From Hydrogenoanaerobacterium saccharovorans (GTDB lineage: Bacteria > Bacillota > Clostridia > Oscillospirales > Ruminococcaceae), in assembly GCF_016901815.1 (NCBI RefSeq), contig NZ_JACSNR010000001.1:248001-312000 (forward strand): 64,000 bases of DNA, read 5' to 3'. The notes below the pieces were generated by a model. The model searched no databases, had not been told where the DNA came from, and saw only the letters and a list, made by a program, of their open reading frames with translations. Shown in pieces: positions 31,024 to 33,244 of this stretch. The position numbers and the translations under genes were made by a program. The first letter of the stretch is position 1. Each line of letters starts with the position of its first letter.

Positions 31024-31060
31024 GAAAAAACTCCCCCGCACATCAGAATGCGGGGGAGTT
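31024..31060 (-). terminator. Terminator of the LRR protein gene
   Basis: Minus-strand stem AACTCCCCCGCA / TGCGGGGGAGTT followed by TTTTTTC. Confidence 0.9.
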
Positions 31061-31097
31061 TTGAACAGATCTGTCTGTTACAAACAGTCAGAACCGG

Positions 31098-32873
31098 TTA
31101 CCGTCCGGTGCTGGGGTTTTCCTTGTCGCCGGTGGAGGAGGAAGTCTCGTCCTCGGCGCCGTCAGCAGTCAGCAGCTCCGATTCAATGTCCTCAAAATCA
31201 TACCAGATCTTGTGAACAGTACCGATCTCCAGACCGTTGATGGTATAGGTCACACCGTTCTTGCGAACCTTCAGAGTGATGTCCTCACCCTTCAGCGCAC
31301 GGGCCACACTGGCCGGGAAGTAAGGCAGGCCAGTGGCGTTGAACTCGATGGTTTCGCCTTCCTTGCCATCCTCGATGAGCTTGGCAATCTTGTCCTTGAG
31401 CTCGTCCCACTTCTCGTTGCCGTAGTAGTCGGAGTATTCACGGCTGGTGCTGGGTGTGGGATCAGGGTTGGGTGTGGGGGTTGTGGGCTTTGTGCCAAAA
31501 CGGATAGCCGCACGGAATGTATCACGAGCTCCCTCAAGTACAGAAACGGCACTTGTAATATCCCCCGAGTCATCGGCTTTTGCCAGAGCATCCTTAGCAG
31601 TCTGAATTGCAGCTTCAAAGGTGCTGTAATCGCTTGCGGTAACCCACTGCTTGCCGGATTCCACAGCGTCTGCGCTCTCAGCCTGCTCTACACTTGCAAG
31701 CAGTGCTTCAGCTGCCTTAATGGCTTCAGTCAGAGGAGCCGAATCATAATCAGCTGTACCATCTTTTCTCTGGCCTTCAAAAGTGGACTTAGCGTCATTC
31801 AGAGTAGTAACTGCCTGTTCTACTTCTTCCTTGGAGGCATCTTCCTTATCTACAACAGCCTGTGCAGCGTTGATTGCATCAGTGAATGTTTCAATATTAG
31901 CAGCAGTTGCCCATTTATTTGATGTGGCTACATCTGCTCCATTCTCGCTGGCAACAGTGGCATCCAGAAGAGCCTGCGCATTGGCAATAGCAGCCTTCAG
32001 AGCAGTCTTGTCCACAGTTTCAGAAGAAGGTGTACCGAATACACTGTTCTTCCAATCAGCGTTATCCTTGATGGAAGCAGGCAGTTTGCTTTCCAGACTA
32101 TCAATATTGGAGAACGAGTTGCCCTGCAGATTGAGGTTTTCCAGCTTGCTGAAACTGCTCAGGTCTGTGAGAACGCTGATCAGGTTGTCGCTGAGATCGA
32201 GAGTTTCCAGACTGGTCAGACCAGAAATCTTGCTCATATCCTCAATGTTGTTGCCGCTGGCCTTCAGGCTGGTCAGTCCAGTGGGCAGGCCGGCAAGATC
32301 GCGTACCTTTGTATTGGACACATCCAGGGTCTTCAGGCTGGACAGGCCAGACAGCTTGGACAGATCTGCGAGAGAGGCATTATCCGACAGATCCAGGGTC
32401 TCCAGGCTTGTGAGACTGGGCAGAGCCGACAGGTCCTGAATATTGTTGCCGGACAGATCCAGGGTCTTCAGGCTTGTGAGACTGGACAGAGCCGACAGGT
32501 CCTGAATATTGTTGCCAGACAGTGTCAGGCTGGTCAGGCTGGTCAGACCGGACAGGAAGCTCAGATCCTGTACCTGGCTGTCAGTTACAGTCAGGGACGT
32601 CAGACCGGTGCAGTTCTCCAGGCCCTTCAGTGCGCCCAGGCTCAGGCTGTCAATGGTCAGGGTTTCGATAGCAGCGGCTTCGCCCTCTGTCAGCTTTCCA
32701 TCATCGTTCGAATCTCCGGCTTCCAGCATAGCGTTATAGAGCTTGCTCTCCCATACATCGCCATCCGGATAGCCCTTGGTAATTTCGTCTTCCGGTGCTG
32801 CAAATGCTACCGAGGCCGTCGAAACACTCATCATGGCAGCAAGCAGCAGAGCTATTAGCTTTTTGTTGTTCAT
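31098..32873 (-). CDS. Secreted leucine-rich-repeat protein with FIVAR-like domains
   Basis: About 591 residues. A signal peptide ends at ASVAFA-A. An EF-hand/dockerin-like loop DSNDDGKLTEGEA lies near 50. Six to seven 22-residue LRRs of the SDLSALSSLTSLKTLDLSGN type follow (about 75-235). Two FIVAR-like helical domains come next (each with W.TA and LxxAIxxAxxxxxx patterns, about 285-360 and 380-470), then a Pro/Thr linker and a beta domain. It ends NPSTGR, like a truncated NPxTG sorting signal with no hydrophobic tail. ATG 32873 follows GGAGAG. It is probably a surface or secreted adhesin. Its promoter contains a G10 tract. Confidence 0.9.
   Translation of the reverse strand: MNNKKLIALLLAAMMSVSTASVAFAAPEDEITKGYPDGDVWESKLYNAMLEAGDSNDDGKLTEGEAAAIETLTIDSLSLGALKGLENCTGLTSLTVTDSQVQDLSFLSGLTSLTSLTLSGNNIQDLSALSSLTSLKTLDLSGNNIQDLSALPSLTSLETLDLSDNASLADLSKLSGLSSLKTLDVSNTKVRDLAGLPTGLTSLKASGNNIEDMSKISGLTSLETLDLSDNLISVLTDLSSFSKLENLNLQGNSFSNIDSLESKLPASIKDNADWKNSVFGTPSSETVDKTALKAAIANAQALLDATVASENGADVATSNKWATAANIETFTDAINAAQAVVDKEDASKEEVEQAVTTLNDAKSTFEGQRKDGTADYDSAPLTEAIKAAEALLASVEQAESADAVESGKQWVTASDYSTFEAAIQTAKDALAKADDSGDITSAVSVLEGARDTFRAAIRFGTKPTTPTPNPDPTPSTSREYSDYYGNEKWDELKDKIAKLIEDGKEGETIEFNATGLPYFPASVARALKGEDITLKVRKNGVTYTINGLEIGTVHKIWYDFEDIESELLTADGAEDETSSSTGDKENPSTGR
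32140..32600 (-). repeat. 66-bp tandem repeats encoding LRR units
   Basis: Successive units of 66 bases encode 22-residue LRRs. Two units around 32425 and 32491 are almost base-identical (GACAGGTCCTGAATATTG repeats exactly 66 bases apart), so copy number could change by recombination or slippage without a frameshift. Confidence 0.85.
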
Positions 32874-32944
32874 TTCATTCTCTCCTTTACAATTTTTCGC
32901 ATGCAAGTCTGCATCTCCAACCTGCAAACCTGTATACAGTACCG

Positions 32945-32975
32945 ATTATACCCCCCCCCCGGATTTACGCGTCAA
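32945..32975 (-). promoter_or_regulatory. LRR-gene promoter with a G10 homopolymer in its spacer
   Basis: Minus strand: TTGACG (32970-32975), a spacer CGTAAATCC plus exactly ten G (19 bases, 32951-32969), then consensus TATAAT (32945-32950). The -10 sits directly on the homopolymer. The start codon is about 72 bases further. Length change of the G tract would change -35/-10 spacing. Confidence 0.8.
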
Positions 32976-33244
32976 TGTGGGGATTTGAAATTCTACATCC
33001 TTTGCCTGCAAATTCAGTATTTTGAATGAATTGCGCAAATTATAATTCTATTTTTTTAGTTGTTTATCCAATATATAACATATTATTATGTTCTTCATTT
33101 TTCTCTGTCACTTATACACAAAGCATGAAAATTCTGTGAAATCCATCCGGGTTCTGTGGTAAATCGCCCATATCTGTGCTATACTCAAGGTATGGAAAAC
33201 AGGTTCACACACCACCCCTGAAATGATCAAAAAAGGAGGATATT

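Follow-up and report, generated by a model that had tools for sequence, protein, structure and literature searches.

Poly-G runs in the promoters of other bacteria lead to random up and down switching of surface proteins, and in the Vlp system of Mycoplasma hyorhinis the promoter tract is poly-A. In gut Firmicutes, phase variation is known mainly through DNA inversions. The spacing between the -35 and -10 hexamers is optimal at 17 in sigma-70-type promoters, spacings of 16 and 18 are weaker, and those of 15 or 19 are poor. The porA gene of Neisseria meningitidis carries a poly-G tract between -35 and -10, for which 17 bp is taken as optimal according to the account given in PMC7864442, which cites the original work; van der Ende 1995, on porA, appears in the reference list of PMC5084427. 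Likewise, tp0126 of Treponema pallidum (OmpW-like) has its tract between -35 and -10 with an optimum of 17, and for porA, T. pallidum tp0126, tprE/G/J and tprL transcription was shown to depend on the length of the poly-G tract, which in tprL comprises 7-11 G in vivo (PMC7864442). The Vlp system is among those that PMC11868660 cites. Slippage of the sortase-pilus G tracts of Bifidobacterium breve was shown by maximum depth sequencing, and the authors only mention other G tracts that are located in promoter spacers (PMC9187656). Searches of a literature collection with few subscription papers returned no account of promoters with a poly-G spacer in Clostridia.

The G10 promoter and the LRR gene

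The window, i.e., the whole 64,000-nt stretch of DNA that was analysed, carries a promoter of this type on its minus strand at positions 32975-32945. The -35 hexamer TTGACG (32970-32975) is followed by a 19-base spacer (32951-32969), composed of CGTAAATCC (32969-32961) and the G10 tract GGGGGGGGGG (32960-32951), and by the -10 hexamer TATAAT (32945-32950), which the tract abuts directly. The plus strand reads attata (32945-32950), C10 (32951-32960), ggatttacg (32961-32969) and cgtcaa (32970-32975). The arrangement put forward in the original prediction (TTGACG, a spacer of nine bases plus ten G, and TATAAT) was thus exact on direct reading. The ATG of the LRR gene lies 71 nt downstream of the -10, and the ribosome binding site region AAAGGAGAG (32880-32889, minus strand) is a good match.

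The gene (31098-32873, minus strand) encodes a secreted LRR protein of 591 aa, recognized by its signal peptide and domain matches, that starts with MNNKKLIALLL and ends with NPSTGR. Its domains are LRR_4 (E 8.2e-29), LRR_8, a FIVAR-like segment and a C-terminal family B domain (31101-31430, minus strand; alignment A1) that recurs at three further loci of the genome, two with poly-G promoters ahead of them. The product had been predicted to be a surface LRR/FIVAR adhesin. The LRR assignment and secretion via the signal peptide were borne out, and the FIVAR label was not, the match (26.2 bits) being below the Pfam cut-off (29.2). Surface location and adhesin function are at most what we infer, given that no membrane tail follows the C-terminal NPSTGR and that the FIVAR score falls short of that cut-off. 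An intrinsic terminator (31027-31062, minus strand; 15-bp stem, 6-nt loop and T run) is placed right after the LRR stop, and therefore the transcription unit is probably monocistronic. In the other two species of the genus the LRR gene is absent from this place and galE directly adjoins sdaAB, so that the tract of the window has no orthologue for comparison.

In the AT-rich DNA upstream of the poly-G promoter a candidate second, fixed promoter, TAAACA-16-TATAAT, was found by consensus match (33039-33066, minus strand). The G10 tract could vary and still matter little for the LRR gene if this upstream promoter (33066-33039) or readthrough drove its transcription. This reading gains something from the 10/12 match on the same strand and from TTGACG being poor with a spacer of 19 as assembled, but such matches are frequent in AT-rich DNA, and the exact placement of G tracts relative to -35 and -10 throughout the genus (see below) argues that the poly-G promoter works. 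We consider it very unlikely.

Poly-G promoters in the genus and beyond

The next longest G run within the window comprises 6 residues, and the 3 G8 positions observed (~8 are expected from dinucleotide shuffles) are all inside the G10 tract. Taken alone, a single G10 in a window of 57% G+C could be due to chance, and homopolymer counts are error-prone; the authors of the B. breve work caution that long G tracts can be miscounted from Illumina data (PMC9187656). Against chance or an assembly artefact stands the genome-wide picture. The 17 overlapping G8 positions of the window's genome form six tracts of at least G8 (G9-G11), and 6/6 are found between TTGAC and TATAAT, abutting TATAAT. With a TATAAT frequency in the window of ~2.9e-4 per position, the chance that all six tracts are followed by this hexamer is of the order of 1e-22, with the TTGAC requirement still uncounted. 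Furthermore, the design recurs in three independently assembled genomes, and a reversed-pattern control gave 0 matches in 299 family genomes, the three of the genus included, so that this explanation hardly deserves credence.

The genus sample consisted of three species of the chicken-associated gut genus Candidatus Avimicrobium, represented by the window's genome, G001 and G002. Poly-G promoters were found in 3/3 genomes and amount to 26, with tracts of G7-G11 in assemblies whose counts of long G tracts may err by one or more; the number is 20 when only TATAAT is allowed and reaches 26 once other -10 hexamers, mainly TATACT, are admitted. Nine belong to the window's genome, six with at least G8 and three with G7. 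The spacer was of 16 bases in 10 cases, which is the mode, and of 11 (1), 14 (2), 15 (5), 17 (5), 18 (2) and 19 (1) bases in the others, so that 25/26 fall between 14 and 19. Among the genus promoters, the spacer bases outside the G tract (4-9 nt) showed no clear compensating trend with tract length. As in the window, the tract abuts the -10 in the other promoters with at least G8, and most -35 prefixes are conserved (TTGACAAARTGC). The share of the G tracts of the genus that lie in such promoter spacers is 23/34 for at least G8, 21/24 for at least G9 and 9/9 for at least G10. The remaining tracts of at least G8, all in G001 and G002, are without this promoter anatomy; some G8-G9 tracts of these two genomes (L149, L152, L153 and L154) are placed in TATAC-Gn-TATA or GTACC-Gn-TAT contexts and are possibly other contingency loci.

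Signal-peptide genes from two paralogous families, with the signal peptides judged by eye from the N-terminus, stand behind 22/26 promoters. The rest precede two orthologous amino-acid transporters or lie near contig ends (two promoters), one of the latter, in G001, overlapping a family B match. Members of family B carry the same C-terminal domain as the LRR protein of the window, DYYGNEKW...NGLEIG... (alignment A1), and those of family A the signature ...YANIDFITF...YIYADEDAFIYEV... (alignment A2). The slippage-prone promoter spacer proposed originally is therefore strongly supported by comparison, with 26 like-designed promoters in three species, nearly all of them ahead of genes for secreted proteins. 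The feature had been taken for an oddity of the LRR gene, and is instead the general pattern in a repertoire of paralogous secreted proteins.

The C-termini of these proteins share a further trait. In all of the 16 secreted proteins checked, NP[D/S/N]TGR or IPDTGR immediately precedes the TAA codon; in the family B protein of L004 a stop comes before this point. The sorting-like NP[D/S/N]TG, to which one R is added before the stop, has no hydrophobic tail and is strictly conserved (e.g., 31101-31118 in the window). Sortase anchoring of the LPXTG/NPXTG type was considered and rejected, the 16 proteins having neither a hydrophobic segment nor a positive tail after the motif.

Beyond the genus the pattern is sparse, as it was detected in 14/296 family genomes and, in a phylum-wide sample, in 7/398 other genomes with one control match. 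Poly-G spacer promoters outside the genus (L068, L070, L072, L039, L043 and L044) often precede genes that by eye look like those of lipoproteins or solute-binding proteins, which suggests a convergent use. In Streptococcus azizii (L075, NZ_MSPR01000005.1), TTGACAAAATGCC-G8-TATAAT is located ~370 nt upstream of a CpsB-like gene, whose product we take to resemble the capsule phosphatase CpsB. A phage origin of the promoter pattern was discarded, since only two matches were found in 2.9 million viral contigs.

Tract length differences and fixed-spacer siblings

Natural controls are provided by related promoters that differ in the tract. In G001, the promoter and leader of the loci L030 and L031 differ by 2 substitutions over ~130 nt, yet L030 has G8 and a spacer of 15, and L031 has G10 and a spacer of 17. 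Shortly past the ATG the two coding regions are no longer alike, and to judge from this sequence pattern the promoter cassette may have been shared or exchanged between the paralogues. Among the transporter orthologues of the three species, one promoter has G7 and a spacer of 11 bp, another G9 and 16 bp, and the third has no tract and a fixed TTGACA-18-TATAAT. These differences among near-identical cassettes and among orthologues add to the support for a slippage-prone spacer. L156 and L159 are 98.6% alike and both have G9, and therefore cassettes need not differ in tract length.

Of the approximately 12 family A members encoded in the window's genome, five are directly behind poly-G promoters, two just behind such genes and the rest behind fixed promoters. 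The promoter of one paralogue, L062, reads TTGACA-AGTGGGCCCTGGCAGGC-TATAAT, with 17 bases, no G tract and a similar upstream repeat motif. Many family A promoters have a conserved direct repeat resembling AATTACARAAANATTACA, which lies upstream of the -35 at a constant distance and was located at L002, L003, L005, L025, L026, L029-L031, L033, L034, L035, L036, L151, L156 and L159, with L062 having the similar form. This repeat is possibly a common regulator site or an UP element.

These data bear on whether the tract is a static promoter element, that is, a fixed structural feature (stiff G-tract DNA, the site of a regulator or a spacer kept weak) under which promoter strength would be constant and the length differences would be neutral drift. 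The invariable abutting of the -10, the conservation of most -35 prefixes and the direct repeat upstream of many family A promoters, which indicates that a regulator may act there, would all fit such an element. However, a range of G7-G11 and of spacers from 14 to 19 among paralogues is not what a constant element leads one to expect, nor is G8 vs G10 in otherwise near-identical cassettes; some paralogues with fixed spacers, including the normal 17-base one, retain a similar upstream repeat, and long G runs are hypermutable elsewhere (PMC9187656, PMC7864442). A static element is thus unlikely, though it is the alternative to which we would give most weight.

A proposed slippage switch and its described relatives

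The explanation that we favour with considerable confidence for the G10 tract is slipped-strand phase variation through promoter spacer length. The tract would be a contingency element in the core promoter of the secreted LRR protein, and the gain or loss of G residues during replication would alter the -35/-10 distance, which is 19 as assembled and would become 18 or 17 after the loss of one or two G. Transcription would then shift between low and high. Since its spacer is of 19 bases, the window promoter is presumably in a low state as assembled, and its output should rise once one or two G are lost. With each element placed before its own gene, slippage within a population could yield secreted or surface proteins in combinations that vary stochastically, and on these host or phage may exert selection.

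At the scale of the genus, we lean towards the view that these little-studied gut Clostridia have placed a whole repertoire of secreted proteins under poly-G switches that act independently, through the spread of a cassette of promoter and leader (the upstream direct repeat, TTGACA, the G tract and TATAAT or TATACT), so that clones would display random on/off combinations of surface proteins and some siblings would be locked by a fixed 17-base spacer. If true, bet-hedging by slippage, as in Neisseria and Treponema, is also at work on the surfaces of animal gut commensals, and bulk assemblies conceal the on/off states of these secreted proteins. The G counts at fixed sites can be read directly from existing metagenomic reads.

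The closest described systems resemble this one in different respects. With porA it shares a G homopolymer in the core-promoter spacer of a surface protein gene, but porA is one gene of a Gram-negative pathogen, and here about nine promoters per genome precede secreted-protein genes in a commensal of the Gram-positive-lineage Clostridia. In T. pallidum, too, several paralogous or surface genes (tp0126 and tprE/G/J/L) have poly-G promoters, and the in vivo range of 7-11 G of tprL resembles that of the genus; however, organism and proteins are unrelated, and tprL transcription begins at the fourth base past its tract, whereas in the present promoters a clear TATAAT or TATACT follows the tract immediately. 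In the Vlp system, also a multigene family, every gene has a separate promoter homopolymer and surface variation is combinatorial, but its tracts are poly-A instead of poly-G, its products are lipoproteins and its host belongs to the Mollicutes. B. breve offers a Gram-positive gut commensal with G-tract slippage for surface structures, although its tract is within the coding sequence and acts by frameshift. The class of mechanism is thus already known, and what appears to be new is its genus-wide, multi-gene scale and its host among the gut Clostridia.
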